DNA from: Verrucomicrobia bacterium IMCC26134
GTDB taxonomy: Bacteria > Verrucomicrobiota > Verrucomicrobiia > Opitutales > Opitutaceae
Reading direction: 5' to 3'
DNA length: 64,000 nt
Assembly: GCA_000972765.1 (NCBI GenBank)
Contig: CP011265.1
Location: forward strand, 2,527,501-2,591,500
Position 1 is the first letter of the stretch; each line of letters starts with the position of its first letter. A program made the position numbers and the translations under genes. Under the pieces are notes generated by a model that made no database searches, was not told the origin of the DNA, and saw only the letters and a list, made by a program, of their open reading frames with translations. Below are positions 7,159-64,000 of this stretch, in pieces.

Positions 7159-7338
7159 GGGGCGAGGGATGGGTTGCGAATGCGAACAGACTGCTGCCTG
7201 CGCCGATAGGCAGCCAGAATTAGGACGAGAAAACAACTTCATGCAGACGTTTCGGCGGAGCACTCCGATGCAAAGCGAAACCCAAGCCGAGAAAAGATAC
7301 ACCGGCTTTCTCCCATGATAGAGCGCGTTAGCGAACGC

Positions 7339-8379: not shown

Positions 8380-8390
8380 GGGGGTATGTC

Positions 8391-8403
8391 TCTTACTGTA
8401 AGA
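8391..8403. promoter_or_regulatory. Palindromic operator candidate between lacI-type gene and Gfo/Idh-rhaM
   Basis: TCTTACTGTAAGA is a perfect inverted repeat around a central T, in the 103-bp divergent gap. One arm with the centre, ACTGTAAGA, recurs upstream of the PL1, GH127 and MFS genes. Position, symmetry and the adjacent lacI-type gene suggest autoregulation plus control of the divergent operon. Confidence 0.6.
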
Positions 8404-8482
8404 ACTGCTCTGCATCGCGGCTTGGCTCAAGCGGATTATTTTGCGTTTCACTCAACGGGCTCCACGCCCACTCTCCGCCTCC

Positions 8483-9682: not shown

Positions 9683-9993
9683 TCCGCAAAGCCTTTGTCA
9701 TGTCCGTGAACACCGGGGCCGAGGCAGAATATGCCCATCGCCACCAGCCCATCTGGGACGAGCTCGCCGACGTGCTGCGCTCCCATGGCGTCCACAACTA
9801 TTCGATTCATCTCCACCCCGAGACCAACCAGCTTTTCGCCTACGCCGAGATCGAAGACGAGGAACGCTGGCAGGCCATCGCCCGCACCGAGGTCTGCCAG
9901 CGTTGGTGGAAACACATGGGACCGCTCATGCCTTCCAACCCCGACCATAGCCCGATTTCGAAATCGCTTCAGGAAGTCTTCCACCTTGCCTAG
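9679..9993 (+). CDS. rhaM: L-rhamnose mutarotase
   Basis: At 104 aa it has the same length as Escherichia coli RhaM and matches it along its whole length, for example [25 protein letters not shown] and LQEVF. RhaM interconverts the alpha and beta anomers of L-rhamnose. The active-site Tyr18 and His22 of the family are conserved at the same positions. The gene overlaps the Gfo/Idh gene by 4 bp and is the clearest evidence that the locus handles free L-rhamnose, the repeating neutral sugar of the RG-I backbone. No rhamnose isomerase, kinase or aldolase gene is found in the window. It is predicted to be cytoplasmic. Confidence 0.95.
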
Positions 9994-10066
9994 CTAGTCC
10001 TTGGGCCGGGCTGGTTTCGTTTGATTCTAATCGGCGGGATATTTTTCCGCCCCTCTCTTCTCCCCT

Positions 10067-12808: not shown

Positions 12809-12904
12809 GCAAATCGAACTCGCCTGAGCCCTGCGCCAACTCCGTCGCAGAGCGTCACCCGCCCTCAATCTTCCCCAATAATTTTACCGGCCTCGATTTC
12901 CGCT

Positions 12905-14260: not shown

Positions 14261-14480
14261 GCTATTCAACTCCGTCGACCGTCTCACCCGCCTTTACCCC
14301 CTTTAACCTGATAGAATGGGTGGCCCTACTTCGGTCTGCGCGGCAATCGAAGGCTCCCTCCGCGCACCTGGCAAAAACCCGACACCAGCCAGATCCAAAC
14401 CCCGACCGCTCCCTGATCGTCAAGACGGTTCCTGTTTTGACTGGGCCGTCATCACGCCCTGATTTCCTTTCCTATCTACC

Positions 14481-35560: not shown

Positions 35561-36070
35561 ATGATCCCCTTACTCCGACATTACCTATCGATAACAGCCG
35601 TGTTTTTCTCGTCGCTGGCCTGCGCCCACGATCCATTTCAAAACACCCTCGAAATCCAGCCCACTGCGCAATGCCTGGAGGTGGTCGCCATTATATCCCC
35701 GCTCACCGGCGGCGCCTTGCTCACCCCGCCCAGTCGCACCCCCCTCTCGCAAGAGGTCTATCTTGCCCAGCGATCCGGTCTGCTCGCCGCCGCGCCTAAA
35801 GTCTGCGTCCTCTTGGACTCCGAAGGGAAGGCGATCCCCTCGTCCGGCGTCCACCTCTCGTTCAACACTCAAGGCGAGCTCCAGTTCCTGTTTGAATACC
35901 CGTCGGCGTCCCGCCCCGCCGTCCTCCGCGTCGATCTCCTCTCCAGCCTGGGCAGCAACTACTTCTTCGAGGTGATCGACCGCACCTCAAGCCCGCCGCG
36001 CCTGATCAGTTTAGTGCGCGACCATCCGCTTTTCCCCCTTCAAGCCCAGCCGTCCGTCCCGACCCCATGA
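35561..36070 (+). CDS. Small secreted protein of unknown function coupled to the PL11 gene
   Basis: The 169-aa protein (ATG 35561; a TTG two codons earlier is an alternative) begins with a signal peptide ending near SLACAHDPF. The rest is a beta-rich sequence with no motif I recognise: LTGGALLTPPSRTPL, VCVLLDSEGKAIPSSGVHL, VLRVDLLSSLGSNYFFEV. It looks like one small beta-sandwich domain. The stop overlaps the start of the giant PL11 gene by 4 bp (ATGA), implying coupled translation and a joint function, perhaps as an export or folding partner or an accessory binding protein. That is inference. The divergent MFS gene shares the 201-bp upstream region. Confidence 0.65.
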   Translation: MIPLLRHYLSITAVFFSSLACAHDPFQNTLEIQPTAQCLEVVAIISPLTGGALLTPPSRTPLSQEVYLAQRSGLLAAAPKVCVLLDSEGKAIPSSGVHLSFNTQGELQFLFEYPSASRPAVLRVDLLSSLGSNYFFEVIDRTSSPPRLISLVRDHPLFPLQAQPSVPTP

Positions 36071-44259: not shown

Positions 44260-47200
44260 ATGATAACCTCCCTCCGTTCATTCTTCGCCGTCTTCGCCTT
44301 GGGCGTTTTGCTGGCACCTGCCGCGGACGCCGCCGCGGTCGATTTCCCCAGTGCTGGTGGGATCACGATTAACAACCTGCTTTATACAGGTCCCGGAAAT
44401 CCCTATCCCTCGCCCGTCACGGTGACCAATATGGGGGTGGTTTCGGCAGTTCGGGTGAAGATCAACGGTTTCAACAGCGACCAAGCCGCCGACGTGGACG
44501 TATTCCTCGTCGCGCCGAATGGCCGGGTCTCCGCGGTCTTTTCAGACGTGGGCGGTGACGTCTTTACCATCAACAATATCAACCTCGTCCTGGACGACGC
44601 GGCCACTGCGAACCTCCCAGCGAACTCCACCTTGGCTTCAGGGACCTACAAGCCGATCAACAACCAGCCGGTTGAAGCCGTGCCAGCGGGGGCGACGGGG
44701 CCCATCGGCACCAACCTCAGCGCCTTGGCCGCCAATGGCGCGAATGGTGTCTGGAAACTCTATGTGACAGGTGACGGTGAGGCTGACAACGGGGGAGGCG
44801 GCTCGATTGCGTCTTGGGCTTTGGTGTTCGACACCACGGGAGCCACGGTCACCACCCCGACCGCGTCCACGATCACCACCACCGCCGCCACCCTGGGCGG
44901 CAACGTCACAGCCGCCGGAGGGTTGACCATCACCTCCCGCGGGGTCGTTCTGGCACCCACCTCGACCAACAGCGATCCGGCGATCGGGGGAACCGGCGTC
45001 GTCAACCTGACAACCTCCGGCACCACTGGCATTTTCACGCTCAACGCCAGCAGCCTCAGCCCCCAGACTGCTTACACCTACAAAGCTTACGCGACCACCA
45101 GCGCGGGCACCAGCTACAGTGTTGCCAGCAGTTTCAATACCCAGATCACCCTGACCTACGCGGCCGGAGCTGGCGGCTCGCTCACCGGCACCACGCCGCA
45201 GACCGTCAACTACAACGCCAGCGGCTCCGCCGTCACCGCCGTCCCGGCCGCCAACTACCACTTCGTGAACTGGAGCGACGCCTCCACATCCAACCCCCGC
45301 ACCGATGCCAACGTGACCGCCGCCAAGAGCGTCACCGCGAATTTCGCGATCAACACCTTCACCCTGACCTACACCGCCGGCGCCAACGGCTCCCTCACCG
45401 GCACCACGCCGCAGACCGTCAACTACAACGCCAGCGGCTCCGCCGTCACCGCCGTCCCGGCCGCCAACTACCACTTCGTGAACTGGAGCGACGCCTCCAC
45501 ATCCAACCCCCGCACCGATGCCAACGTGACCGCCGCCAAGAGCGTCACCGCGAATTTCGCGATCAACACCTTCACCCTGACCTACACCGCCGGCGCCAAC
45601 GGCTCCCTCACCGGCACCACGCCGCAGACCGTCAACTACAACGCCAGCGGCTCCGCCGTCACCGCCGTCCCGGCCGCCAACTACCACTTCGTGAACTGGA
45701 GCGACAGCTCCACCGCCAACCCGCGCACCGATACCGGCGTGACGGCCGATCGGAGCGTGACGGCCAACTTCGTCTTCAATCTTCCTCCAGTAGTCCCGTT
45801 GCCCATCGTCACGTTGAACGGGCCGGCGACGGTGACCATGGCGGCCAACAGCACCTACACGGAGTCGGGCGCGTTCTCCGGTCCCAGTGCCCTTGCCGCA
45901 GGCGGGTCACACAACCTGGCGCTGCGCAGCGACGGGACGGTCGCCGCCTGGGGATACAATTACTATGGGCAGACGACCCTCCCCTACGGCTTGATCAACG
46001 TGGTCGCCCTTGCCGCTGGCAAGTTTCACAGTCTGGCGCTGCGCAGCGACGGGACGGTCGCCGCCTGGGGATACAATTACTATGGGCAGACGACCCTCCC
46101 CGTTGGCTTAAGTAACGTGGTGGCCATTGCTGCGGGCTGGGAGCACAGTCTGGCGCTGCGCAGCGACGGGACAGTCGCCGCGTGGGGAGGCAATGCGGAA
46201 GGCCAGTCGACCATCCCCGCCGGGTTGAGCAACGTGGTGGCCATTTCCGCGGGCCATTATCACAGTCTGGCGCTGCGCAGCGACGGGACGGTCGTCGAGT
46301 GGGGACACAATTACTATGCCTACACGACCCTCCCCGCCGGCTTGAGCAACGTGGTGGCCATTTCCGCTGGCTATTATCACAGTCTGGCGCTGCGCAGCGA
46401 CGGGACGGTCGTCGCGTGGGGATACGGTGGCAGCGGCTTGGCGACCATCCCCGCCGGCTTGAGCAACGTCGTGGCCATTGCCGCTGGCGGAGGGCACAGT
46501 CTGGCGCTGCGCAGCGACGGGACGGTCGCCGCCTGGGGAGACAATTACTATGGCCAGACGACCCTCCCCGCCGGCTTGAGCAACGTGGTGGCCCTTGCCG
46601 GGGGCGAGGATCGCAGTCTGGCGCTGCGCAGCGACGGGACGGTCGTCGCGTGGGGAGATAATTACTATGGCCAGACGACCATTCCCGCGAATGCCTATCT
46701 GCCTGCCACCGTCAGCGGCAACGTGGATACCCACACGCCCGGCAGCTACGTTTTGACCTACAGTGCCACCAATTTCCTGGGCGGCAGCAGTAGCAACACC
46801 CGCACGGTGGTGGTGGTGCCGCCCTTTACCCTGACCTACGCGGCGGGCGCCAATGGCTCGCTCACCGGCACCACGCCGCAGACCGTTGACTACGGCACCG
46901 CTGGCACCTCCGTCACCGCCGTCCCGGCCCCCGGCTACCACCTCGTGGACTGGAGCGACGGCTCCACCGCCAACCCACGCACCGACGTAGTCGTGACCGC
47001 CAACCGCAGCGTGACCGCAAATTTCGCAATCGGTGGCTACACGCTGGCCTATGCTGCGGGCGCCAACGGCTCGCTCACCGGCACCACGCCGCAAACCGTC
47101 ATCCACGGCACCAGTGGCACTGCCGTCACTGCCGTCCCGGCCCCCGGCTACCACTTTGTGAATTGGAGCGACGGCTCCACCGCCAGCCCGCGCACCGACA

Positions 47201-50200
47201 CCAACGTGATGGCAGACCGCAGCGTGACCGCGAATTTCGCCATCGGTGGTTACATCCTCACCTACACCGCCGGCGCCAACGGCTCGCTCACCGGCACCAC
47301 GCCGCAGACGGTCAACTACAACGCCAGCGGCTCCGCCGTCACCGCCGTCCCGGCCGCCAACTACCACTTTGTGAGCTGGAGCGACGACTCCACCGCCAAC
47401 CCCCGCACCGACACCAACGCGATGTGGAATGTGAACGTGACCGCGACCTTCGCGATCAACACCTACACGCTGACCTACGCGGCAGGCACCCACGGCTCGC
47501 TCACCGGCAGCACGCCACAGACCGTTGAGCACGGCACAACTGGCACGGCCGTCACTGCCGTGCCAGTTCCCGGCTATCACTTCGTGGTCTGGAGCGACGG
47601 CGCTACTGCCAATCCACGCACCGACACCAACGTGATGGCAGACCGCAGCGTGACCGCGAATTTCGCCATCGGTGGTTACATCCTCACCTACACCGCGGGT
47701 GCCCACGGCTCGCTCACCGGCAGCACGCCGCAGACCGTTGACTTCGGCACCGCTGGCACCGCCGTCACCGCCGTCCCGGCCCCCGGCTACCACTTCGTGG
47801 TCTGGAGCGACGGTGCCACCGCCAGCCCCCGCACCGACACCAATGTGATGGCGAATGTGAACGTCACCGCGAACTTCGCGGGCATTCCACCCGGCACCCT
47901 CGATCCGCTGAACCTTGGCGTCGAAGGCACAGGAGTCTATGGCACGGCCGTGCAGCCCGACGGCAAGACCATCATCTCAGGCATTTTCACCTCCGTGCTC
48001 GGAGTGCCGCGCAACAGTATCGCCCGGCTCAATGCCGACGGCACGCTCGACATGGGCTTCGATCCCAATGCGGGCGGCGGCGGCGTCAACACCATTGTCC
48101 TTAGCTTGGCCTTGCAGGCGGATGGCAAGGTGCTGATCGGGGGCATCTTCACCACGCTCCAGCCCAACGGCGCGGCCACCGCCACTACGCGCAACCGCAT
48201 CGCCCGGCTCAATGCCGACGGCACGCTGGACGAGGGCTTCGATCCCAATGCGAACGGCACCGTCTCTAGCCTGGCCTTGCAGGCGGATGGCAAGGTGCTG
48301 ATCGGCGGCAGCTTCACCACGCTCCAGCCCAACGGCGCGGCCGCGCCCACTCCGCGCAACCTCATCGCCCGGCTCCATGCCGACGGCATGCTGGACATGG
48401 GCTTCGATCCCAATGCGAATAACACCGTCTCGAGCCTGGCCTTGCAGGCGGATGGCAAGGTGCTGCTCGGCGGCAGCTTCACCACGCTCCAGCCCAACGG
48501 CGCGGCCTCGGCCACCACGCGCAACCGCATCGCCCGGCTTAATGCCGACGGCACCCTGGACCTAGGCTTCGATCCCAATGTGATCCGCATCAATCTTAGC
48601 GGCGTCGCCACCGGCGGCTCCGTCGCGAGCATCGTGGTGCAGGCGGATGGCAAGGTGCTGATCGGGGGCAACTTCACCACGCTCCAGCCCAACGGCGCGG
48701 CCACCGCGACTACGCGCAACAGTATCGCCCGGCTCAATGCCGACGGCACGCTCGACATGGGCTTCCGTCTCAATCCGAGCGGCATCGTCCAGAGTGTAGC
48801 GTTACAGGCGGATGGCAAGGTGCTGCTCGGGGGCCAGTTCAACCTGTTCTATCCCATCACCAACAATTATGCCATAGCCACCCCTCGCAACCGCATCGCC
48901 CGGCTCAATGCCGACGGAACACTGGACGCCAGCTTCAATCCCGATGCGGACGGCGCCGTCCTTGGCGTGGCCTTACAGGCGGATGGCAAGGTGCTGCTCG
49001 GGGGCTTTTTCACCGCGATCTCGTCCATCCCCCGCAATCTATTTGCCCGGCTGGACAACGACGCTGCCACGCAGACCCTCTCCGCCCCCGGCGCCACCGA
49101 GGCGCTCTGGAGCCGCGGCGGGGCGGCGCCGGAGCTCACCCGGGTGACCTTTGAGCTGAGCACCGATGGCGGCACCACCTGGGGCGCGCCCATCGCGGGC
49201 ACGCGCCTCGGCGCCACGGCCAACTGGCAGGCCTCCGGCCTTGCCCTGCCTGCCAGCGGACAACTCCGCGCCCGTGGCGTGACATCCGGCGGCTATCGGA
49301 GCGTCAGTTCAGGGCTGATCGAGCAGGTCACCAGCTTCACCCTCTACACCGTGACCTACGCGGCAGGCGCCCACGGCACCCTCAGCGGCACCACGCCGCA
49401 GTGGGTGGCCTCCGGTGCCAGCGGCACCGCCGTCATAGCCGTGCCGGATGCCGGCTACCACTTCGTCAACTGGAGTGACGGCTCCACCGCCAACCCCCGC
49501 ACCGACGCCAACGTGACGGCCAACCTGAGCGTCAATGCGAACTTCGCCCTCGGTGGCTACACCCTGGGCTATACGGCGGGCGCCAACGGCTCGCTCACCG
49601 GCACCATGCCGCAGACGGTCAGCCACGGCACCAGCGGCACCGCCGTCACCGCCGTTCCAGCCAACGGCTACCACTTCGTGAACTGGAGCGACGGCTCCAC
49701 CTCCAACCCCCGCACCGACGCCAACGTGACGACCAACCTGATTTTCACCGCGAACTTCGCCCTAGGCGGCTACACCTTGGCCTATACGGCGGGCGCCAAC
49801 GGCTCGCTCACCGGCACCGCACCGTGGACGGTCAGCCACGGCGCCAGCGGCACCGCCGTCACCGCCGTCCCGGTCACCGGCTACCACTTCATCAGTTGGA
49901 GCGACGGCTCCACTGCCAACCCGCGCACCGACACCAGCGTGATGACGAGTGTGAACGTGACCGCGTCTTTCGGCCTGTATGCGCCGGCGGCACCCGTGCC
50001 CACGGTCACGTTGAATGGGTCAGCGACGGTGACCCTGGCGGTCAACAGCACCTACACCGAGTCGGGCGCGTTCTCCGGGCCCACTGCCATTGCCGCGGGC
50101 GCGTCTCACAGTCTGGCGCTGCGCAGCGACGGGACGATCGCCGCGTGGGGAGACAACACCTATGGCCAGACGACCCCTCCCGCCGGCTTGAGCAACGTGG

Positions 50201-51804
50201 TGGCCATTGCCGCGCGCTTGTATCACAATCTGGCGCTGCGGGGCGACGGGACGGTCGTCGCGTGGGGAGATCAGACGACGATCCCCGCCGGCTTGAGCAA
50301 CGTGGTGGCCATCGCCGCGGGCGGGTCCCACAGTTTGGCGCTGAGCAGCGACGGCACGATCGCCGCGTGGGGAGATAATACTTATGGCCAGACGATCATC
50401 CCCGCCGGGTTGAGCAACGTGGTGGCCCTTGCCGCGGGCACTTATCACAATCTCGCGCTGCGAAGCGACGGAACGGTCATCGGGTGGGGATACAATGCCT
50501 ATGGCCAGACGACGATCCCCGCCGGCTTGAACAACGTGGTGGCCATCGCCGCAGGCGATTTTTACAGTCTGGCGCTGCGCGGCGATGGGACGGTCGTCGG
50601 GTGGGGAGATAATCGCTCTGGCCAATTGAACAGCCTCCCCGCCGACTTAAGCAACGTGGTGGCCCTTGCCGCGGGCTATAATCACAGTCTGGCGCTGCGA
50701 AACGACGGGACGGTCACCGGGTGGGGACCGAATTACTATGGCCAGTTGACCAACCCCGACGGCTTGGACAACGTGGTGGCCATTGCCTGCGGGAGCTTTT
50801 ATCACAGTCTGGCGCTGCGCAGCGACGGGACGGTCTTCGCGTGGGGATACAATGACCATGGCCAGACGACCATTCCCTCGAATGTCTATCTACCTGCCAC
50901 GCTCAGCGGCAGCGTGGATACCACCAGGCCAGGCAACTACGTGCTGACCTACAGTGCCACCCATCCACTGGGGGGCACCAGTAGCACCACCCGCACCGTG
51001 GTGGTGCCCGCCACCCTCACCTACGCGGCAGGCGCCCACGGGACGCTCACCGGCACCACGCCGCAGACGGTCAATTACGGTGCGAGCGGCACCGCCCTCA
51101 CCGCCGTGCCGGACGCCAACTACCACTTCGTGGACTGGAGCGACGGCTCCACCGCTAATCCGCGCAACGACACCAACGTCACGGCCGACCTGAGCGTCAC
51201 CGCCAACTTCGCCCTCGGTGGTTACACCCTGACCTACGCGGCGGGCGCCCACGGCACAATCACGGGCAGCACGCCGCAGACCGTTGACCACGGAGCCAAC
51301 GGCACCGAGGTCACCGCCGTGCCAGCCGCAAACTCCCAATTCGTGAGCTGGAGCGACGGCGTGCTGACGGCGGCGCGCACCGAGACCAACGTGACGGCCG
51401 ATCGGAGCGTCACGGCGAACTTCTCCCTCAACACCGTCAACACCTGGCGCGAGACCTACTTTGGCCCCACCGCCACCAACTCGGTTAATGCCGCGAATAC
51501 CGCCGATCCTTACCACACCGGCGTCCAGAACCTCCTGGTCTATGCCTTCTTCGGCCCGGCCCAGAATCCTGCCACGGTCCAGATCAGCCAGCTCCCGCAG
51601 GCCACCGCCAGCGGGAATTTTCTGAGCTACGAGTTCACCGAGCCAAGCGGAGTCAGCGGCCTCACCTACGGCGCCGAGTGGAGCGCGACGCTGGGCAACG
51701 ACTGGCAGCCCGTGACCGACACCGGCATCGCCCCCGTGCACACCTTCCGCGTGCCCCTGGACGGACCCAAGAAGTTCCTGCGCCTGCGCGTCACCACGCA
51801 GTAA
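44260..51804 (+). CDS. Giant secreted mosaic protein: P-domain, InlB-type repeats, two RCC1-like arrays and a delta-60 array
   Basis: The 2514-aa protein has a signal peptide (about 1-25). Residues about 27-190 resemble a proprotein-convertase P domain (VDVFLVAPNGRVSAVF, NGVWKLYVTGDGEADNGGG). Thirteen divergent InlB B-type repeats of about 71 aa follow in blocks (GSLTGTTPQTV, YHFVNWSDGST, SVTANF). Between blocks lie seven RCC1-like repeats (about 545-812; SLALRSDGTVAAWG), seven delta-60 repeats (about 1225-1605; ALQADGKVLIGG, IARLNADGTLD) and again seven RCC1-like repeats (about 1941-2210). Each RCC1 array is flanked by halves of a DUF5011/Ig-like domain (VTLNGPATVTMAANSTYTES ... SGNVDTHTPGSYVLTYSATN). 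The C-terminus (WRETYFGPT ... KKFLRLRV) matches the giant lyases. No enzyme domain is seen; an adhesive or surface role is inferred. Confidence 0.85.
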   Translation: MITSLRSFFAVFALGVLLAPAADAAAVDFPSAGGITINNLLYTGPGNPYPSPVTVTNMGVVSAVRVKINGFNSDQAADVDVFLVAPNGRVSAVFSDVGGDVFTINNINLVLDDAATANLPANSTLASGTYKPINNQPVEAVPAGATGPIGTNLSALAANGANGVWKLYVTGDGEADNGGGGSIASWALVFDTTGATVTTPTASTITTTAATLGGNVTAAGGLTITSRGVVLAPTSTNSDPAIGGTGVVNLTTSGTTGIFTLNASSLSPQTAYTYKAYATTSAGTSYSVASSFNTQITLTYAAGAGGSLTGTTPQTVNYNASGSAVTAVPAANYHFVNWSDASTSNPRTDANVTAAKSVTANFAINTFTLTYTAGANGSLTGTTPQTVNYNASGSAVTAVPAANYHFVNWSDASTSNPRTDANVTAAKSVTANFAINTFTLTYTAGANGSLTGTTPQTVNYNASGSAVTAVPAANYHFVNWSDSSTANPRTDTGVTADRSVTANFVFNLPPVVPLPIVTLNGPATVTMAANSTYTESGAFSGPSALAAGGSHNLALRSDGTVAAWGYNYYGQTTLPYGLINVVALAAGKFHSLALRSDGTVAAWGYNYYGQTTLPVGLSNVVAIAAGWEHSLALRSDGTVAAWGGNAEGQSTIPAGLSNVVAISAGHYHSLALRSDGTVVEWGHNYYAYTTLPAGLSNVVAISAGYYHSLALRSDGTVVAWGYGGSGLATIPAGLSNVVAIAAGGGHSLALRSDGTVAAWGDNYYGQTTLPAGLSNVVALAGGEDRSLALRSDGTVVAWGDNYYGQTTIPANAYLPATVSGNVDTHTPGSYVLTYSATNFLGGSSSNTRTVVVVPPFTLTYAAGANGSLTGTTPQTVDYGTAGTSVTAVPAPGYHLVDWSDGSTANPRTDVVVTANRSVTANFAIGGYTLAYAAGANGSLTGTTPQTVIHGTSGTAVTAVPAPGYHFVNWSDGSTASPRTDTNVMADRSVTANFAIGGYILTYTAGANGSLTGTTPQTVNYNASGSAVTAVPAANYHFVSWSDDSTANPRTDTNAMWNVNVTATFAINTYTLTYAAGTHGSLTGSTPQTVEHGTTGTAVTAVPVPGYHFVVWSDGATANPRTDTNVMADRSVTANFAIGGYILTYTAGAHGSLTGSTPQTVDFGTAGTAVTAVPAPGYHFVVWSDGATASPRTDTNVMANVNVTANFAGIPPGTLDPLNLGVEGTGVYGTAVQPDGKTIISGIFTSVLGVPRNSIARLNADGTLDMGFDPNAGGGGVNTIVLSLALQADGKVLIGGIFTTLQPNGAATATTRNRIARLNADGTLDEGFDPNANGTVSSLALQADGKVLIGGSFTTLQPNGAAAPTPRNLIARLHADGMLDMGFDPNANNTVSSLALQADGKVLLGGSFTTLQPNGAASATTRNRIARLNADGTLDLGFDPNVIRINLSGVATGGSVASIVVQADGKVLIGGNFTTLQPNGAATATTRNSIARLNADGTLDMGFRLNPSGIVQSVALQADGKVLLGGQFNLFYPITNNYAIATPRNRIARLNADGTLDASFNPDADGAVLGVALQADGKVLLGGFFTAISSIPRNLFARLDNDAATQTLSAPGATEALWSRGGAAPELTRVTFELSTDGGTTWGAPIAGTRLGATANWQASGLALPASGQLRARGVTSGGYRSVSSGLIEQVTSFTLYTVTYAAGAHGTLSGTTPQWVASGASGTAVIAVPDAGYHFVNWSDGSTANPRTDANVTANLSVNANFALGGYTLGYTAGANGSLTGTMPQTVSHGTSGTAVTAVPANGYHFVNWSDGSTSNPRTDANVTTNLIFTANFALGGYTLAYTAGANGSLTGTAPWTVSHGASGTAVTAVPVTGYHFISWSDGSTANPRTDTSVMTSVNVTASFGLYAPAAPVPTVTLNGSATVTLAVNSTYTESGAFSGPTAIAAGASHSLALRSDGTIAAWGDNTYGQTTPPAGLSNVVAIAARLYHNLALRGDGTVVAWGDQTTIPAGLSNVVAIAAGGSHSLALSSDGTIAAWGDNTYGQTIIPAGLSNVVALAAGTYHNLALRSDGTVIGWGYNAYGQTTIPAGLNNVVAIAAGDFYSLALRGDGTVVGWGDNRSGQLNSLPADLSNVVALAAGYNHSLALRNDGTVTGWGPNYYGQLTNPDGLDNVVAIACGSFYHSLALRSDGTVFAWGYNDHGQTTIPSNVYLPATLSGSVDTTRPGNYVLTYSATHPLGGTSSTTRTVVVPATLTYAAGAHGTLTGTTPQTVNYGASGTALTAVPDANYHFVDWSDGSTANPRNDTNVTADLSVTANFALGGYTLTYAAGAHGTITGSTPQTVDHGANGTEVTAVPAANSQFVSWSDGVLTAARTETNVTADRSVTANFSLNTVNTWRETYFGPTATNSVNAANTADPYHTGVQNLLVYAFFGPAQNPATVQISQLPQATASGNFLSYEFTEPSGVSGLTYGAEWSATLGNDWQPVTDTGIAPVHTFRVPLDGPKKFLRLRVTTQ
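45150..45776 (+). repeat. 213-bp tandem repeats encoding InlB-type domains
   Basis: Three consecutive units with a 213-bp period (the same GACCGTCAACTACAACGCC segment begins near 45201, 45414 and 45627) are almost identical in DNA. More diverged relatives occur later in the gene, and a copy with the same NYNASGSAV segment near 47310 suggests internal gene conversion. Confidence 0.85.
45894..46700 (+). repeat. First RCC1-like array, seven units of about 111 bp
   Basis: Seven in-frame repeats of about 37 aa with the core LALRSDGTV-x-x-WG and a GLSNVVAIAAG linker. DNA identity between units is high (ctggcgctgcgcagcgacgg in most). Seven units match a closed seven-bladed propeller. Confidence 0.85.
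47930..49070 (+). repeat. Delta-60 repeat array, seven units
   Basis: Seven units of about 53-65 aa with QADGKVLIGG-F and IARLNADGTLD-GF-PN. Several share long identical DNA stretches (gcggatggcaaggtgctg). Units four and six have longer loops. Confidence 0.82.
50083..50890 (+). repeat. Second RCC1-like array, seven units
   Basis: Seven repeats of the same kind as at 45894-46700 but more diverged; the second unit is shortened (WGDQTTIPAG lacks the usual loop). They are flanked by the same split Ig-like halves as the first array. Confidence 0.82.
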
Positions 51805-56476: not shown

Positions 56477-59400
56477 CTATGCGATTTTGGCTTTAAAACT
56501 GCGCCAGTTTGCGAGGGGGAGCGATGCGATGAGCATGACGGCCAGTTGGGTGCCGACGAACGCCACGAGCCACCACATCGCCGAGTCCATAAACCCGTAG
56601 CTGTGCAGGCCGACGCCCAGCATGTTCACCCCAAACCAGCTCCAGGCGGTGACGATGTTGCCAAAGATGGCGAGATTCATGAGGCCGCGCGCCTTGACCA
56701 GCCCCCCCCAGCGGGCGTGGAGGATGAGCGCGTTCCAAAGCACGATGATGAGCGCGCCGTTCTCCTTGGGATCCCATCCCCAGAAGCGCCCCCAAGATTG
56801 GTCGGCCCAGATGCCGCCCAGCACCGTGCCGACAAAGCTGAAGAGCGTGGCGAAGCACACGATGCCGTAAACCATGCGGGCGAGCGAATCGGCGGTGGCG
56901 GCGTCGAGCGACCGCGTGAGCACGCCGCGCAACACGTAGATAAGCGCCAGGAAACCGGCAAGGAAGGTCGCCGCGTAGCCGACCGTCACGGTGACGACGT
57001 GCGTCGCCAGCCAGAAATTCGAATCCAGCACCGCGCGCATCATCTCCATGGTGTCGCCGCCGAGGGACAGATGATGGGCGATGAGCAGGGTGGCGAAGCC
57101 GATGAGACCGGCGGCGACACTGCCGATGGCGTTTTTAAAGACGGACTCGAGGACAAGGCAGAGTCCGACCGCGCCCCAACCGACAAACAGGGCCGAGGAG
57201 TAGAGATTGGTGACGGGCGGACGGTTCTCCAGCCACATGCGCGCAAGGATGCCGGCACTGGCGAGGACAAAGGCCACGACGACCAGCCAGAAGGCGGCGC
57301 GCCCGAGCGGCGCGGGCCACTTCAGCCACGATAAAATCGCCAGCAGGAACGCGGCGACGTAGAGCATCATGCTCGTGTAGAAGGGCTGCGAGGAATTGAA
57401 CCGCGCCTCGACATCGCACTTGGCCAGGCGGGCGGGAATGGCGGTCTCGAGGCGGGCTCGATAGGCCGCGACGGCGGTGTTAAACGCGGAAGGCGACTGC
57501 TCGCGCCAGGCGCCGCCGAGCACGGCGTAGGTGGTGACGGCGGGATTCACCCGACCCTCGACGAGGCTCGCCTGCAACGAGGCGCCGGCGCTCTTCCACG
57601 CCGAGGGCGAATCGGCACCCGTCTCGGGCGGAATGGGCAGCAAGTAGCCCAATGTGTCGAGGGTGGCGAAGGTCTGGCTGAGCTCGAGCAACTCCTTGGT
57701 GAGGACGGAATCATGCGGCTGGCCGGCACGCTGTAAACGGAGGGCTTCGAGTCCGGCGGGGATGGTCACGCCAAAACGGGCGGCGCGATCGAGGTAGTTA
57801 TCCACCCCGGGAGGGACCAGGCTGGCCTGGAGATGTTGATAAAGGACGATGTTGTCACGGAGCTTGATGACCGCGCGCTGGAACGGTGAGCGCACGGGGG
57901 CCTCGGCGCCATCGGCGAGGTTGGCCTGACGCTCGAGCTCGGGGAGGGACTTGTGGAGCTGCGAGAGAGAGAAGCGTTTTTTACCCGCACCGTCCTCCGG
58001 GGCGAGATTGACGAGGGTCAGCACGTCGGGATGAACGATCTCGAAAGTCTGGTAGGTATCCGCGACCTCGGGTTGGTAAAGCACATCGAGCAACCACGCG
58101 GCGGGCGTGAGCGAGCGCCCATCCGGCGTGGTGACGCGCTGGCGGCCCTGGGTGGTGAGCAAGGTGGTGCGTCCGACGGTGTCGAGGGGCTTGAGACGGC
58201 CGTTCACCAAGGTCGGCAGGCGACCGAAGCCGACGAGGTCGAAGTCGCCGGCGTTACTCGAGGACCGCAGGGAAAAGAGAACAAGCAGCACGGCGGCACC
58301 GAGCACGAGACGCGGGAACAGTTTACCGGACACGGGAGTAACGGGGGCGACGGCGGCTGATTTCCCCGCAACGGGGACGACCGGCGCGCGACGGCGCTTG
58401 ACGAAGCCCAGGAGGTGGATGCCGAACTGGATGAGCAGGCCGGCGGACATGATCCCGCAGGCGATGTAAGGGAGAAGCCATGACGGATTGCGCACGACCT
58501 GCAGAATGGTGGTGCGGTCGTTGTTGGCGAAACCGGCCTGGTAAAACGTGAGGCCGGCGTAGCGCAACGGGTTGTTCATGTAGATGACCACGTCACGATC
58601 TTCGCGGCCATCGGGGGTCTTGAGGTGGATGCGGCTGGAAAAGTTTTTCGGGATATCAGTGCCCGCGTAGCGGTCGTGGCTGAACTTTTGCAACGTGAGC
58701 GAGAACGGCCGGTAAATGCGTTTCGCGCGCAGGGTGATTTTCCAGGACTGGCCGGCGTAGTCGAAAGTCTGCGGCACGGTGAGGTTGGTGGAGACCAGGA
58801 AAGTGCCCAGCGAGGCGTCGGGGGCGACGAGTTCAACGTAGGCGGAGGGGGTGTTGGATTCGTCGGTCTTGTAGGTCACGGGAACCGGCGCGGCATCGAG
58901 GGAGAGGCCGGCACCGAGAGTGGCCAGGGTGGGCGTGCCGCCGTCGGGGCGACGCGATTGCAGAAGCGAGTTGGGGTAGTAAACTTTAGGAACGACGCGA
59001 AACGGCAGATTCGGGTGCTGGACCTCCTTGTGGCGGGCGAGCAGCGCGTCAGGGATGGCGACGACCTCGTCGAAGTCGGGCGAGGTGACCTTGGTGATGG
59101 CGAGCTCGTTAAGTTGATAGCTCTCGGCGTAATTCTTCGTTTCGCCATTGTTCAAGCGCATGAAGTATTCCTCCTGCCAGAGGCCGCTGAGCAGTTCGCC
59201 AACCAGCAGCAGAATGAGACCGATGTGGGTCAGGAAGATGCCGGCCTTGCGCGCGTTGAGGGTGAAGCGGTAGAGGTGGCCGGCGACGAGGTTGATGAGC
59301 AAGAGGCCGCCGATCAGGTAGCCGCCGGGGAAAAGCGGAAGCGCGAGACCGTTGACCTCTTGGAAAACAATAAAGGTTCGGAACCACTTATGCTGGATGC

Positions 59401-59527
59401 CCCAGACGCCGAGGTTGGTCTGGTCGAGCGTGGCGGCGAATACCAGCAGGATGGAGAACGCAATCAGGACGACCGTGAGCTTCAGCGAAACGAAGAAGTC
59501 GCGAAAATAACGGAGGATATCGTTCAT
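56477..59527 (-). CDS. ccsBA: Fused CcsB-CcsA (ResB-ResC) cytochrome c haem lyase
   Basis: The 1016-aa membrane protein fuses both System II components. The N-terminal half is ResB-like: TM helices near 15-35, 68-85, 95-115 and about 355-375, with a large periplasmic domain between (NGETKNYAESYQLNELAI, NFSSRIHLKTPDGREDRD). A further periplasmic segment follows, about 450-720. The C-terminal half is CcsA with about eight TM helices and the WWD haem-handling loop WADQSWGRFWGWDPKENGA (about 900-920). It exports haem and attaches it to CxxCH motifs, so it matures the multihaem cytochromes encoded just downstream on the other strand. The start overlaps the end of the lipoprotein gene by 4 bp (ATGA), so both are one coupled operon. 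Confidence 0.93.
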   Translation of the reverse strand: MNDILRYFRDFFVSLKLTVVLIAFSILLVFAATLDQTNLGVWGIQHKWFRTFIVFQEVNGLALPLFPGGYLIGGLLLINLVAGHLYRFTLNARKAGIFLTHIGLILLLVGELLSGLWQEEYFMRLNNGETKNYAESYQLNELAITKVTSPDFDEVVAIPDALLARHKEVQHPNLPFRVVPKVYYPNSLLQSRRPDGGTPTLATLGAGLSLDAAPVPVTYKTDESNTPSAYVELVAPDASLGTFLVSTNLTVPQTFDYAGQSWKITLRAKRIYRPFSLTLQKFSHDRYAGTDIPKNFSSRIHLKTPDGREDRDVVIYMNNPLRYAGLTFYQAGFANNDRTTILQVVRNPSWLLPYIACGIMSAGLLIQFGIHLLGFVKRRRAPVVPVAGKSAAVAPVTPVSGKLFPRLVLGAAVLLVLFSLRSSSNAGDFDLVGFGRLPTLVNGRLKPLDTVGRTTLLTTQGRQRVTTPDGRSLTPAAWLLDVLYQPEVADTYQTFEIVHPDVLTLVNLAPEDGAGKKRFSLSQLHKSLPELERQANLADGAEAPVRSPFQRAVIKLRDNIVLYQHLQASLVPPGVDNYLDRAARFGVTIPAGLEALRLQRAGQPHDSVLTKELLELSQTFATLDTLGYLLPIPPETGADSPSAWKSAGASLQASLVEGRVNPAVTTYAVLGGAWREQSPSAFNTAVAAYRARLETAIPARLAKCDVEARFNSSQPFYTSMMLYVAAFLLAILSWLKWPAPLGRAAFWLVVVAFVLASAGILARMWLENRPPVTNLYSSALFVGWGAVGLCLVLESVFKNAIGSVAAGLIGFATLLIAHHLSLGGDTMEMMRAVLDSNFWLATHVVTVTVGYAATFLAGFLALIYVLRGVLTRSLDAATADSLARMVYGIVCFATLFSFVGTVLGGIWADQSWGRFWGWDPKENGALIIVLWNALILHARWGGLVKARGLMNLAIFGNIVTAWSWFGVNMLGVGLHSYGFMDSAMWWLVAFVGTQLAVMLIASLPLANWRSFKAKIA

Positions 59528-60189
59528 GGGGCGGCGGGCGCGGGGGCTTTGACGGTTTGCAGGAAGGCGAGGAAGGCGGGTTTGGCTGCGGTGACGAGGG
59601 CATCGGGCCCCATGAGTTTAAAGAACCACATCGCCTGTCCAAAGGGCACCATGGCGCCGAGAATGCGCTTGGGCTGATCACCGGAACCGGCGAGATCGAC
59701 GACCGTGAAGGTCAGATCGCCCGCAGTGACGCGGGTAGCGGCCGCAGGGAGTCCGGCGGCATCGATCGGATCGAGCGAGACCTGGCCGCGCCAGCGGTTG
59801 ATGTTGGCGAGTTCTCCTCCCACGGCACCGGGGAACGCCGTGATGGAGAGGTCGGCGATGGCGCCATCCGCACCGGTGACGGTGAAGCTCCCTTTGCGCA
59901 TCTGGCCGAGGTCTTTTGCCTGCCAGTCGCCAGGGGCGGTCCAAGTGAGATTCGCACCGGCGGCGGTTTCAACCGGGGTGGATGCCATCGCGCCCATTCC
60001 GGGCATGGCGGCGGGCAGGGCCCCCGAAGGCTGGGCTGACTCGGGTATGGCTCCGTGAGGAGCAGCACCGGCGTTGGCCGGTTCGGACGGGGGTGCAGTG
60101 TCGGTTTCCTTGGCGACGCGGTATGACTCGACCTTGGGGTCGCGACATCCAGATGCGGCGAGCAGGAGGCCGAGCAGGCTCACGAGCAT
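59524..60189 (-). CDS. Lipoprotein coupled to ccsBA
   Basis: The 221-aa product from ATG 60189 has a short lipoprotein signal with lipobox LLLAASGC, so it is probably membrane-tethered on the outside of the inner membrane or in the outer membrane. ATG codons at 60303 or 60345 would give longer forms that bury the lipobox and are disfavoured. A Pro/Ala-rich linker (about 30-75) is followed by a compact domain, LTWTAPGDWQAKDLGQMRKG, NINRWRGQVSLDPID, MVPFGQAMWFFKLMG. I recognise no characterised function. The 4-bp overlap with ccsBA suggests an accessory role in cytochrome c maturation or use. That is inference from context. Confidence 0.75.
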   Translation of the reverse strand: MLVSLLGLLLAASGCRDPKVESYRVAKETDTAPPSEPANAGAAPHGAIPESAQPSGALPAAMPGMGAMASTPVETAAGANLTWTAPGDWQAKDLGQMRKGSFTVTGADGAIADLSITAFPGAVGGELANINRWRGQVSLDPIDAAGLPAAATRVTAGDLTFTVVDLAGSGDQPKRILGAMVPFGQAMWFFKLMGPDALVTAAKPAFLAFLQTVKAPAPAAP

Positions 60190-60477
60190 GAAGCGTGAGC
60201 TCCCGGTCGTGATGATATTGAGGAAAGCAGGGGTGACGGAGGAGCCGTTGATTGAATTCACGAGATTCACTATATCAGCAGAAGGCGATCTGCTGCTGTG
60301 CATATTTTGCTCAATCCCTGTTGGGACTTGGGCTGGAAGAAGCAAAGTTTGCTACACTCTGAGCAAGTGATGCGTAGCCGATTTGCGCAAAATAAGGCAT
60401 CCTAACGCAAGATCCGCAGCCGGTCGCGGTTGCACGAAAAAATCCCTCAAATTGCAGCACCCGGCTGAATAAAACCC
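60190..60477. promoter_or_regulatory. 288-bp divergent intergenic region between the lipoprotein and cytochrome genes
   Basis: No gene is seen. It holds an inverted repeat CAGCAGA-(6 nt)-TCTGCTG at 60276-60295 and a 10-bp palindrome TTTGCGCAAA at 60382-60391. Both could be regulator sites for the two divergent cytochrome operons. If the lipoprotein began at an earlier ATG the first repeat would be coding. Confidence 0.4.
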
Positions 60478-60813
60478 ATGAAAACCTCCCTTAAAATTGC
60501 CGCTCTCGGCGCCAGTCTGCTTGTTGCCGGCACTATTAGCCAGGCCGCACCCGCCTCGGAAAACTGGGAAGCCAACTGCGCCAAATGCCACGGTGCAGAC
60601 GGCAAGGGAGAGACCAAGGTTGGCAAAAAACTAAAGGTGAAGGACTACACCGACGCCGCCGTGCAGGCCAAGCTGACAGACGACGAGCTGCTCAAGGCCA
60701 TCACCACTGGCGTCAAAGAGGGAGAGAAAGAGAAAATGAAGGCCTTTAATGATGTCCTCACCAAGGAAGAGATCGCCGATCTCGTCGCCTTCGTCCGCAA
60801 GTTCAAGTCCTGA
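60478..60813 (+). CDS. Small periplasmic monohaem cytochrome c
   Basis: The 111-aa protein has a signal peptide (MKTSLKIAALGASLLVAGT, cleaved after SQA) and one haem-binding motif, CAKCHGADGKGE, with a likely axial Met in EKEKMKAF. This is the layout of the class I c-type cytochromes of the c6/c553/c5 kind (about 85 residues mature). It should shuttle single electrons in the periplasm. The Lys-rich surface suggests docking to an acidic partner. It lies 109 bp upstream of the heptahaem gene on the same strand and is divergent from the lipoprotein/ccsBA pair that would mature it. Confidence 0.92.
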   Translation: MKTSLKIAALGASLLVAGTISQAAPASENWEANCAKCHGADGKGETKVGKKLKVKDYTDAAVQAKLTDDELLKAITTGVKEGEKEKMKAFNDVLTKEEIADLVAFVRKFKS

Positions 60814-60921
60814 GCGCCCCGCCGGCGTTCCCTGTTTCCTTCCGAGAACGTGCCCGGTCGTCCTGACGACGGCGCGGACCCTCGGCGTCTGTCCGCACCC
60901 TCCTGACTCACCTTCCCCGCC

Positions 60922-62418
60922 ATGTCCGACTCCACGACACCACCCGATTCAGCGCCCGTCAGAAACCGCTCGGTTTTCAACAACTGGATCAGCGCCATAG
61001 GCGGTATCCTGGCCATCGGCGCGCTGTTTTCCTTCGCTCTGCTGGTCTGGATGGACTTCACGCAGGGGGACAAGAACCCCTACCTCGGCATCCTCACCTA
61101 CCTAGTCGCCCCCGCTTTCCTGATCGCAGGTCTGATCTTCGTCTTTTTCGGAGCCTGGGCCCAACGGCGCTGGCAGATCAAGCACGCCGCCACCATGCCG
61201 GATAAGTGGCGACTGGACTTCAAAAACCCCAGGCAGAGGCGCACTCTGGTGCTCTTCGGCAGCGGTGGCGTGCTCTTTCTGATGCTCAGCGCATTCGGCA
61301 GCTACGAGACCTACCACTACGCCGAGTCCACCCAGTTTTGCGGAGAAGTCTGCCACAAGGCCATGAGCCCCGAGCTGACCACCTACAAACGCGGAGCCCA
61401 CGCGCGGGTCGACTGCGTGCAATGCCACGTCGGATCCGGCGCCCAATACTTCATCAAGGCCAAGATAAACGGCACCCACCAGCTGATTGCGTATACGATG
61501 GACAACTACAAACGCCCCATCGAGACCCCGATCAAGAACCTGCGGCCAGCACAGGATACGTGCGAAAAATGCCACTGGCCGGAGAAATTTCACGGCAACA
61601 TCGACGTGGAATACTCGCATTTCCTGTCCGATAAAAAAAACTCACCCTACAACGTCCGCATGTTGATGCGGGTGAACAGCGGCCTGCCCGGCAGCCCCAC
61701 CGGTGGCATTCACTGGCACGTCAACCCGGACAGCCGCGTCGAATACTACGCCGCCGACCCCAAGCGCCAGGACATCCCCTGGATGCGCGTAACCAACGTC
61801 AAAGAAGGCACCGCGCGCGTCTACCGCACCGAGGCCTTCAAGGGCGAACCGGACCCGGCCAAGATCCGCGTGATGGACTGCATGGATTGCCATAACCGCC
61901 CCGCTCACAGCTTCCCCACCGCAAACAGCTCGATCGAGCTGGCGATGGCTTCGGGAAAGCTCAGCACGAAACTGCCCGCGCTGAAGCGGGTCGCGGTCCA
62001 GGCCATGACGCAGAAGGACATCACGACGGCCGCCGAAGCCCAGCAAAAGATCGCGGCTTTCCTGACCTTAAAATACCCCGACTCGCCGGAACTGCCCGCC
62101 ACCATTGCAGAGGTGCAGGAACTCTACGCCGCGACGATATTTCCTGAGCGCAAGGCCGACTGGACCGTGTATCCGAATAACATCGGCCACAAAGACTGGC
62201 TCGGTTGCTTCCGCTGCCACGACGAGAAACACAAGACCGACAAAGGCGCGTCCGTGAAAGCCAGCGACTGCACGTCCTGCCACATCATACTTACGCAGGG
62301 AGCGGGCACCCAGCTCACTTCGATCGCTGCGCAAGGCCAGCCGTTCAAACATCCGGACGGGGAACTCGACGGCGATCTCACCTGTTCCGACTGCCACAAC
62401 GGCGGGATTCAAAAGTAA
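60922..62418 (+). CDS. Membrane-anchored heptahaem NapC/NirT-like cytochrome c
   Basis: The 498-aa protein has two hydrophobic helices near the N-terminus (about 24-45 and 55-78) and a third at about 107-125, directly before the first haem site. Seven CxxCH motifs follow: CGEVCH, CVQCH, CEKCH, CMDCH, CFRCH, CTSCH and CSDCH. The first part (ESTQFCGEVCHKAM, GAHARVDCVQCHVG) is NapC/NirT/NrfH-like, the family that takes electrons from membrane quinols. More haems than the usual four suggest a longer periplasmic wire. It is preceded by the monohaem cytochrome gene and followed, after 230 bp, by an octahaem cytochrome. A role in feeding electrons to the periplasm is likely; the final acceptor is inferred. 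Confidence 0.88.
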   Translation: MSDSTTPPDSAPVRNRSVFNNWISAIGGILAIGALFSFALLVWMDFTQGDKNPYLGILTYLVAPAFLIAGLIFVFFGAWAQRRWQIKHAATMPDKWRLDFKNPRQRRTLVLFGSGGVLFLMLSAFGSYETYHYAESTQFCGEVCHKAMSPELTTYKRGAHARVDCVQCHVGSGAQYFIKAKINGTHQLIAYTMDNYKRPIETPIKNLRPAQDTCEKCHWPEKFHGNIDVEYSHFLSDKKNSPYNVRMLMRVNSGLPGSPTGGIHWHVNPDSRVEYYAADPKRQDIPWMRVTNVKEGTARVYRTEAFKGEPDPAKIRVMDCMDCHNRPAHSFPTANSSIELAMASGKLSTKLPALKRVAVQAMTQKDITTAAEAQQKIAAFLTLKYPDSPELPATIAEVQELYAATIFPERKADWTVYPNNIGHKDWLGCFRCHDEKHKTDKGASVKASDCTSCHIILTQGAGTQLTSIAAQGQPFKHPDGELDGDLTCSDCHNGGIQK

Positions 62419-62648
62419 AGTTAACTCAAATATTAGTGCCGGGGACTGTAACCCTAAGGACCATCGCGCACACTCAGGCAAAGACCGCGTGAATGATACT
62501 CAAGCCACCAAGGTCTGCGTAGCGCTTGGCAAGCGGTGCGCAGTGCTCGGGCCGTATATCAGATAATGTGCCTGGTTGATTGAAACTGAACTTTAAGTCT
62601 GCCCCGCAAACCAGCCCCTCCACTCGCCACTAACCGCCAGCGTTATCC

Positions 62649-63458
62649 ATGACCATGATCACTCGACCCCGCCTCACCAAAACCACTCTCTTGTTCGGAG
62701 GCACTGTCCTTTGGGGGCTGCTTCTTATAGGATGCGTAGGCATCAATCGCAGCATTCTCGCCCCGGCAAAAGTGCCGGGCGCAGACTACGTCGGAACCAA
62801 GGAGTGCGCGCAATGCCACTCCGACCAAACCGATCATTTTAAAAACGCCAGCCACGACAAACTCGCCATCGCCGACCCCAAGGTTGGCGCAACCGGTTGC
62901 GAGGCTTGCCACGGCCCCGGCAGCCTGCACGCCAAGGCGGGCGGCGGTATAAACAACATCGTCAACCCCAAGAAATCCCCCGAGACGTGCTTCGCCTGTC
63001 ACGTGGACAAGCGCGGTCAGTTCAGCCTGCCCAGCGCTCACCCCGTTCTCGCGGGCAAGGTAAGCTGCGTAGATTGCCACGAAGTTCACGGCAGCGACGC
63101 CATCCAAGGCCCCGCCGCTTTAGAGTCGATGAACGAAACCTGCACCAAGTGTCATACCGCTCAAAAGGGGCCGTTTGTCTTCGAGCACAGTGCGCTCAAG
63201 GAAGGCTGCGTTTCCTGCCACAGCCCGCACGGCTCCGTGAACCAGAAGATGCTCGTCGCCCGCGACGCCAACCTCTGTCTCCGCTGCCATCTTGAGTCGC
63301 CGGGCAAGCTCGCCGCCGATCTCGGCCAGATCAACGCCAACGCCATCGCCCATACCAATGCCAACCACAACAGCCGTCTCATGTCGGGCAACTGTTGGAG
63401 CTCGGGCTGCCACGAAGCGGTCCACGGCTCGAATACCAGTAATTTCCTTCGCTACTAA
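62649..63458 (+). CDS. Octahaem c-type cytochrome lipoprotein (DmsE/MtrA/OmaB-like)
   Basis: The 269-aa protein has a lipoprotein signal with lipobox LLLIGCVG. Seven CxxCH sites are present (CAQCH, CEACH, CFACH, CVDCH, CTKCH, CVSCH, CLRCH), plus a C-terminal CWSSGCH with four residues between the cysteines, so eight haems are likely. Segment order (YVGTKECAQCHSDQ, GCEACHGPGSLHA, CVSCHSPHGS, ending CHEAVHGSN) is that of DmsE/MtrA-type cytochromes, which pass electrons across the periplasm and plug an outer-membrane barrel. MtrA has ten haems, whereas periplasmic OmaB/OmaC of Geobacter have eight. The next gene, 20 bp away, looks like the barrel. The lipid anchor is unusual for MtrA. Confidence 0.9.
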   Translation: MTMITRPRLTKTTLLFGGTVLWGLLLIGCVGINRSILAPAKVPGADYVGTKECAQCHSDQTDHFKNASHDKLAIADPKVGATGCEACHGPGSLHAKAGGGINNIVNPKKSPETCFACHVDKRGQFSLPSAHPVLAGKVSCVDCHEVHGSDAIQGPAALESMNETCTKCHTAQKGPFVFEHSALKEGCVSCHSPHGSVNQKMLVARDANLCLRCHLESPGKLAADLGQINANAIAHTNANHNSRLMSGNCWSSGCHEAVHGSNTSNFLRY

Positions 63459-63478
63459 CCCTCTATCCCAGACTCAAC

Positions 63479-64000
63479 ATGCAGACCAAATCTCATCAGT
63501 TGTTTCGCACCGCCGGCTTGCTTACAGCCACTTCGCTGGTCATCACCGCCTCGCAGCTAGTCGCCGCGGATAATACCGACGCGTTTCCCTCGTTCGACAG
63601 CTATATCAAAATCAGCGGTCAGTCGGCCTCGATCAAAGGCGACGGGGCCGCGCTCCAAAAACGCACCGGTCAAAACGAAAACTACGGCGTTGGCATCGAG
63701 GAGTTCTACTACGGACGCGACCTCACGAAATCCACCGCCATGACCATCCAAGGCCGCGCCCTGGGCGGCACCGAGGACTATCTCCTCCATATCAACGTAG
63801 CCAAATCCGAACTCGGCTCGATCGACGTCGGCTATGAAAGCTTCCGCACCTTCTACGACTGCGTGGGCGGCTTTTTTCCGGGCGGTGTCAAATGGCGTCC
63901 GGTCACCTCTTTCTATCCCACTATCGACCAGGACATGTCCGTGGATCGCGGAAAACTCTGGGCCGAGGTAAAGCTGGCTAAGGAAAACCTTCCGGAAATA
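63479..64000 (+). CDS. Probable outer-membrane barrel protein (MtrB/OmbB-like), truncated by window end
   Basis: The first 174 residues are in the window and the reading frame is still open at the edge. It has a signal peptide (about 1-30, ending LVAADN). The mature part consists of alternating strands with aromatic and charged residues (FDSYIKISGQSASI, ENYGVGIEEFYYGRD, YLLHINVAKSELGSIDVGYE, FRTFYDCVGGFFPGG). This is typical of a beta-barrel such as MtrB or the porin of Geobacter porin-cytochrome complexes. The gene follows the octahaem cytochrome by 20 bp, the standard arrangement for such complexes. One Cys is visible (FYDCVGG); the N-terminal CxxC of Shewanella MtrB is absent. The assignment rests on context plus strand pattern. 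Confidence 0.65.
   Translation, partial: MQTKSHQLFRTAGLLTATSLVITASQLVAADNTDAFPSFDSYIKISGQSASIKGDGAALQKRTGQNENYGVGIEEFYYGRDLTKSTAMTIQGRALGGTEDYLLHINVAKSELGSIDVGYESFRTFYDCVGGFFPGGVKWRPVTSFYPTIDQDMSVDRGKLWAEVKLAKENLPEI

Follow-up and report, generated by a model that had tools for sequence, protein, structure and literature searches.

Can a sugar-degrading member of the Opitutaceae pass electrons from its quinol pool to an acceptor outside the cell, and does a single short locus encode the parts for doing so? The question is raised by the 3' end of a 64,000-nucleotide stretch of DNA (the window) of Verrucomicrobia bacterium IMCC26134, positions 2527501-2591500 of its 4.0 Mb single-contig genome (CP011265.1). 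An initial annotation of positions 60478-64000 proposed a porin-cytochrome conduit encoded by three adjacent genes, for a heptahaem cytochrome, an octahaem cytochrome and, 20 bp further on, a truncated outer-membrane barrel. When the reading was extended beyond position 64000, these three genes proved to be adjacent as described, with the barrel gene starting 20 bp past the octahaem stop codon; the interval also holds a fourth gene, which had gone unmentioned. All four lie on the plus strand, in the order monohaem class I cytochrome c (60478..60813, 111 amino acids (aa); PF13442, 3.6e-12, PF00034, 2.4e-11), ImcH-like heptahaem inner-membrane cytochrome (60922..62418, 498 aa), octahaem MtrA-like lipoprotein (62649..63458, 269 aa) and MtrB-like barrel. 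The window contains the 5' part of the barrel gene (63479..64000), which ends outside it at 65770 and encodes 763 aa (5479-7770 of locus L002, numbered as the window minus 58000). The intergenic gaps, from cytochrome c through to a multicopper oxidase gene that follows the barrel, are 108, 230, 20 and 395 bp.

We consider it likely that the four genes together encode a short route for electrons through the entire cell envelope, from quinol to an outside acceptor. Computation established the gene order, the haem counts, the homology to MtrA, the barrel fold of a homologue, the conservation of the octahaem-barrel pair and its co-occurrence with the ImcH-like protein.

The octahaem protein contains seven CX2CH motifs and one CX4CH motif, compared with a maximum of three CX2CH in 5000 shuffled versions of its sequence. 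It is homologous to MtrA of Shewanella (phmmer against 6r2q_A, 5.9e-32; this chain is labelled cystathionine beta-synthase in the table, although the title of the entry is Structure of the Mtr complex). The alignment falls into two parts that overlap (residues 49-174 with 63-192 of MtrA, and 108-263 with 177-325), as would be expected if an MtrA-like ancestor had lost two haems or had never gained them. MtrA differs in having ten haems instead of eight, whereas the protein described here is a lipoprotein; in our reading of the phmmer alignment, Trp204 of MtrA, located under the MtrB cap, is paired with Ala135. The best NCBIfam model is that of the GSU2203 (OmcK) family of Geobacter sulfurreducens (NF041028, 1.8e-52; 178.5 bits against a cut-off of 325), which is, however, a decahaem family, and there is also similarity to the DmsE family (TIGR03508, 2.6e-46; 158.2 bits against a cut-off of 192.2). 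The relatives that emerged are of the MtrA/MtrB type and, on the Geobacter side, where Oma/Omb proteins had been named, the GSU2203/GSU2204 pair.

For comparative analysis we used 76 loci, namely those whose octahaem proteins are most similar to ours among the at least 550 relatives found. In an alignment of 37 octahaem sequences (our own and those of 36 of the 76 loci), the lipobox cysteine at position 29 and all eight haem motifs are unchanged throughout, which agrees with the lipid anchor originally predicted. Outside the motifs, seven histidines are conserved in every sequence and an eighth in 32 of the 37; together with the eight motif histidines they would suffice to give each haem two histidine ligands, the predicted bis-histidine arrangement. 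In Escherichia coli, an aspartate residue directly after the lipid cysteine governs lipoprotein sorting. Since none of the 37 sequences has aspartate at this position, the lipoprotein is, by the E. coli rule, likely to be sorted to the outer membrane.

The fold was predicted for a 49%-identical homologue of the barrel (locus L046), with a mean predicted local distance difference test score (pLDDT) of 83.3 and a predicted template-modelling score (pTM) of 0.80. A hand count gave 26 strands, with residues 657-662 and 665-675 joined into one strand and three short strands omitted; the first four strands are short and a helix lies between strands 1 and 2. In all of these respects, strand number included, the model agrees with what has been described for MtrB (PMC7198977). 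MtrB was also the top solved structure in Foldseek (6r2q_B, 1.8e-11, target TM score 0.61) and in VIA-align (Z 22.9, root-mean-square deviation 4.2, 570 of 649 residues), where FecA came next with a Z of 18.7. These results argue for an MtrB-like outer-membrane barrel; judged from the homologue, the truncated gene does encode the barrel of about 20 or more strands that had been anticipated beyond position 64000. Barrel open reading frames (ORFs) longer than 600 aa and ending in a stop codon are present in 71 of the 76 loci; they are broken in L041 (194 aa) and L059 (42 aa) and cut by contig ends in L071, L078 and L104. Of the 62 ORFs (from these 71) used for family scans, six matched PF11854 MtrB_PioB (best 8.6e-7), five OMP_b-brl (best 1.4e-9) and four the GSU2204 family (best 1.6e-6), a model that the window's own barrel does not match. 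A search of the IMCC26134 genome with the PF11854 profile gave no match.

The octahaem and barrel genes form a conserved pair: the latter lies 3' of the former, at a distance of no more than 408 nucleotides (nt), in all 76 loci, 75 of which are labelled as Verrucomicrobiota taxa. Together with the MtrA homology and the MtrB-like fold of the homologue, this adjacency supports the conduit reading of the initial annotation. Neighbouring genes were sought by tblastn (1e-5) in flanks of up to 10 kb per locus. A homologue of the cytochrome c was found at at least 54 of the 76 loci and the heptahaem gene at at least 34, both figures being lower bounds, as contig ends truncate many of the loci. In 30 of these 34 loci the heptahaem and octahaem genes share a strand, with the former on either side of the octahaem-barrel pair; in 28 of the 34 the cytochrome c gene is situated just 5' of the heptahaem gene on the same strand (gap below 800 nt).

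The same association was visible among 57 related genomes, 12 of which carry adjacent octahaem and barrel genes (octahaem matches occurred in 14, but two of them, in G012 and G019, were weak, lacked a barrel match and were not counted). Heptahaem matches were also obtained in 14 genomes, of which three weak ones (G012, G022, G051) were dropped; a strong match (E < 1e-100), adjacent or not, was present in 11 of the 12 conduit genomes and in none of the 45 others (Fisher p 6.5e-11, uncorrected for relatedness). The 76-locus and 57-genome tallies are not independent, since the two sets overlap. Within its own genus the distribution of the conduit is patchy, because only 2 of 15 genomes, several of the others being incomplete, carry the octahaem and barrel genes. 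In a sample of the phylum, strong matches (E < 1e-60) were found in 20 of 387 genomes, 15 of these 20 belonging to the same family; at a threshold of 0.001, matches were found in 49 of the 387.

Two of the loci deserve separate mention. In L102 (6740-10783) the barrel gene is flanked by two octahaem ORFs, which looks like a tandem duplication of the conduit. The L074 contig, labelled Dechloromonas sp., also carries the octahaem-barrel pair, with 60% identity between its octahaem protein and ours; this is perhaps a binning error, or possibly a case of transfer.

Where do the electrons enter? The heptahaem protein has three hydrophobic N-terminal helices (residues 23-41, 57-75 and 108-126), one CX3CH motif (C140) and six CX2CH motifs, compared with a maximum of one CX2CH in 5000 shuffled versions. 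Its similarity to PF03264 is above the cut-off (1.9e-11) and that to NrfH is below it (TIGR03153, 7.1e-16; NrfH structure 2j7a, 0.0019); the part of the protein that resembles NapC/NrfH is the region of helix 3 and of the first haems. Its alignment took in 18 sequences, and a search of a plasmid collection with this protein gave no match. ImcH of Geobacter, for which a quinol oxidase role is given, is described as having three N-terminal helices, an adjacent atypical CX3CH motif and six CX2CH motifs in a length of 495-519 aa (PMC6295460). By architecture the heptahaem protein fits this description in length (498 aa), helices and both kinds of motif; the likeness, taken from the published description, is a match of architecture. 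A heptahaem quinol dehydrogenase, initially regarded as a departure from the well-known systems, is therefore not unusual. The setting of the gene is nevertheless different: in the 2018 survey neither mtrAB nor mtoAB is reported beside imcH (PMC6295460), whereas here an MtrAB-like pair begins 230 bp downstream of the ImcH-like gene. The monohaem cytochrome c, in turn, is probably the periplasmic carrier linking the heptahaem and octahaem proteins.

The quinone-side module also bears on the direction of flow. The same conduit might work inwards, with Fe(II) or another outside donor supplying electrons that would reach an oxidase or the quinone pool, as has been proposed for Mto and Pio. Inward conduits typically have no surface decahaem cytochrome, and none was found here. 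Extracellular electron transfer can, moreover, run both ways (PMC6295460). This use of the conduit is unlikely in our view, as the quinone side has the architecture of ImcH, homologues of which are reported in the same survey only from Fe(III) reducers (PMC6295460), and the polysaccharide-degradation genes of the window (GH2, GH127) fit a heterotroph.

Some of the other loci hold a further multihaem protein. ORFs with at least 11 CX2CH motifs occur in 17 of the 76 loci. The two that were scanned, a 13-haem protein (L033, 12864-15104) and an 11-haem protein (L075, 7304-9601), each encoded beside a conduit, both carry a C-terminal b561-like cytochrome b domain (PF01292), and we therefore rejected them as candidate surface cytochromes. 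A multihaem protein with a C-terminal cytochrome b domain is the arrangement of CbcL/MtrH/MtoC (PMC6295460). Because such b561-domain proteins adjoin other conduits, the conduit may be wired to an ImcH-like module, a CbcL-like module or both; L033 carries both. When the IMCC26134 genome was searched with the multihaem proteins of L033 and L075, none was found, in a search that had no positive control.

The similarity of the octahaem protein to the DmsE family raises the further possibility of a DmsE-DmsF-like pair, which would feed a specific surface-exposed reductase encoded elsewhere and not minerals or humics in general. A second cluster in this genome, which encodes two decahaem proteins and may encode an outer-membrane protein as well, is also in keeping with it. 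No reductase gene, however, adjoins the octahaem-barrel pair: the next genes encode a multicopper oxidase, CusB and CusA, and not the nitrite or DMSO reductase that the initial annotation had named as evidence against a conduit. Nor was any recurrent ORF family in the 76 loci identified as a reductase, although most of the families free of haem motifs are unannotated. We regard a dedicated reductase partner as quite improbable.

Several observations weigh against an outward conduit of the MtrAB type. As regards the barrel, the window's own protein has no Pfam or NCBIfam match, and the predicted fold is that of the L046 homologue and not of this protein itself. TonB-dependent receptors follow close behind MtrB in Foldseek (5.7e-11, with lower TM scores), and a Z of at least 8 was reached by 611 of the 989 chains compared, so that likeness to a large-barrel fold is common. 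Among the homologues, YadA_anchor matches are more numerous than those of MtrB_PioB (11 of 62, best 0.0018, against 6 of 62), and a profile of the barrel family found nothing among the sequences of the Protein Data Bank. The octahaem protein scores under both curated cut-offs (TIGR03508 and NF041028), and the prediction of its structure without haems failed (pLDDT 45.3, pTM 0.23). Only 34 of the 76 loci have the heptahaem gene in the flanks that were retrieved. Finally, no MtrC/OmcA-type protein exceeded the cut-off of TIGR03507 in the IMCC26134 genome; the one match below it is a five-haem protein at 603 kb, and surface cytochromes of other types are not excluded by this search.

Directly after the barrel, where the initial annotation envisaged a possible extracellular multihaem cytochrome, no such gene was seen. 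The position is occupied by a copper unit on the same strand (66166-75853; L002 8166-17853), comprising a YHYH/Ig-like/multicopper oxidase fusion of 1735 aa (66166-71373), CusB and CusA; the gene beyond CusA, read by eye as fabF, is on the strand opposite to the conduit. The oxidase gene begins 395 bp past the barrel on the conduit strand, and conduit and copper genes might thus form one unit serving copper or metal oxidation. This is very hard to reconcile with two findings: some 60 nt past the barrel stop codon the sequence is predicted to fold into a hairpin with a T-run (-25.9 kcal/mol, z -3.85), and none of the 76 conduit loci yielded a match to the oxidase, CusB or CusA in the flanks searched. 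Because of this strong terminator and the lack of co-occurrence, we treat the copper unit as separate and reject it as part of the conduit. The hairpin is one of nine found by the terminator scan, against 6.3 expected; the promoter scan found none, against 1.5 expected.

On the other side, the conduit is preceded by a divergent gene for a lipoprotein predicted by eye (59524..60345, minus strand), which has no Pfam or NCBIfam match, has a homologue at 13 of the 76 loci and is treated here as context and not as a demonstrated part of the conduit. Next to it lies a gene for a ResB-CcsA fusion of cytochrome c maturation system II (56477..59527, minus strand; PF01578, 7.3e-22, PF05140, 5e-17), with a homologue at 17 of the 76 loci; a maturation gene next door counts in favour of the conduit. 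The G+C content of the conduit genes (55.9-60.6%, against 64.3% for the window, with a standard deviation of 2.8 among 2-kb segments) is mildly different, which is compatible with transfer without proving it. Elsewhere in the window, PcRGLX-like, GH2 and GH127 proteins are encoded at 10067-12805, 14481-17135 and 30458-32863, and these fit the earlier view of the host as a plant-polymer degrader. Two adjoining plus-strand ORFs of 2518 and 2514 aa occupy positions 36067-43620 and 44260-51801.

The genome encodes other multihaem proteins as well. Its haem motifs totalled 146 and 132, against 108 and 116 for a backward-pattern control; since these totals are little above the control, only clusters of motifs are meaningful. 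The inventory is incomplete: for the plus strand it ends at 2.589 Mb, and for the minus strand at 2.946 Mb. The second possible porin-cytochrome cluster (L120, G000:C1:2408000-2427900; 7546-15454) encodes two decahaem proteins, one of 570 aa and one of 1308 aa, the longer of which has LVIVD repeats and matches ExtM (1.8e-20, under the cut-off), as well as a protein of 807 aa that looks by eye like an outer-membrane barrel but matches no family. Upstream of the cluster are genes for a 4Fe-4S protein and, by eye, a ferredoxin-reductase-like protein, and downstream apparent cytochrome oxidase genes; the cluster resembles group 1 as described in a study of cave metagenome-assembled genomes (MAGs) (PMC13264449). 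An octahaem protein with TPR repeats is encoded away from the conduit (L121 7782-10046, G000:C1 about 296281-298545).

How new is this arrangement? Clusters of a porin of at least 20 strands and an octahaem periplasmic cytochrome were described by He et al. in 2017 in a number of Verrucomicrobia, including genomes from bogs, Opitutus sp. GAS368 and Opitutus terrae, of which strain PB90-1 is named, and electron transfer to humic substances was proposed for them (PMC5615132); a 2019 opinion paper cites these clusters (PMC6344600). By description our pair is of the same kind, and the loci labelled as Opitutus sp. GAS368 MAGs encode octahaem proteins 68% (L059) and 58% (L078) identical to ours. 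There are also differences: the text of He et al. gives systems homologous to those of Geobacter and Shewanella as absent, whereas our octahaem protein is clearly a homologue of MtrA and our barrel, judged from its homologue, shares the MtrB fold; several of their clusters include an extracellular cytochrome, and none was seen at our locus; and their section on the clusters names neither ImcH nor another inner-membrane partner (PMC5615132).

Among better-studied systems, MtrCAB differs in its MtrC, for which no counterpart above the cut-off was found here. The Geobacter Pcc complexes (OmbB-OmaB-OmcB) are encoded by adjacent genes for a porin, an octahaem periplasmic cytochrome and the 12-haem OmcB (PMC4245776); our locus has a predicted porin and an octahaem cytochrome, but there is no adjacent 12-haem gene. 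GSU2204 has been classed as an MtrB/PioB-family barrel (PMC13188914), and hematite raises GSU2203 and GSU2204 2.68- and 2.36-fold, respectively (PMC4070692). In the 2026 cave MAG study, ImcH-/NapC-like proteins accompany six of eight decahaem-porin clusters, and its section on these clusters does not name Verrucomicrobiota (PMC13264449). Within our searches of open-licence papers we found none on extracellular electron transfer in Opitutaceae, and none that links ImcH to the verrucomicrobial pair or tests the function of the pair. The octahaem-porin pair has thus been known in Verrucomicrobia since 2017, and what we add, modestly, is its homology to MtrAB and GSU2203/GSU2204 and a likely ImcH-like partner in the inner membrane.

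The path that we favour, from quinol outwards, would run as follows. The ImcH-like heptahaem protein would oxidise menaquinol, its presumed donor, at the inner membrane, and the monohaem cytochrome c would ferry the electrons through the periplasm. The octahaem lipoprotein, lipid-held at the outer membrane and threaded in the barrel, would conduct them across this membrane, from which they may exit to an outside acceptor, for example Fe(III), humic quinones or another cell as partner, so that the conduit would discharge onto minerals or partners, as was initially suggested. A dedicated surface cytochrome encoded in the conduit locus is probably not needed. It is possible, although we put this forward only tentatively, that the locus is a self-contained exporter without any surface cytochrome, in which the tip of the octahaem protein itself acts as terminal reductase, with humics or a partner cell as acceptor, and that such a conduit is plugged into an ImcH-like or CbcL-like module across the Verrucomicrobiota.

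The link to ImcH offers a complete and testable path from quinol to the outside within one short locus, and the homology to MtrAB provides a structural model for designing the tests. If the proposed path is correct, sugar-degrading Opitutaceae would be able to respire to outside acceptors when oxygen is short. In soils and humic waters this would shift carbon from fermentation and methane to respiration, as suggested in the discussion of the verrucomicrobial clusters (PMC5615132).

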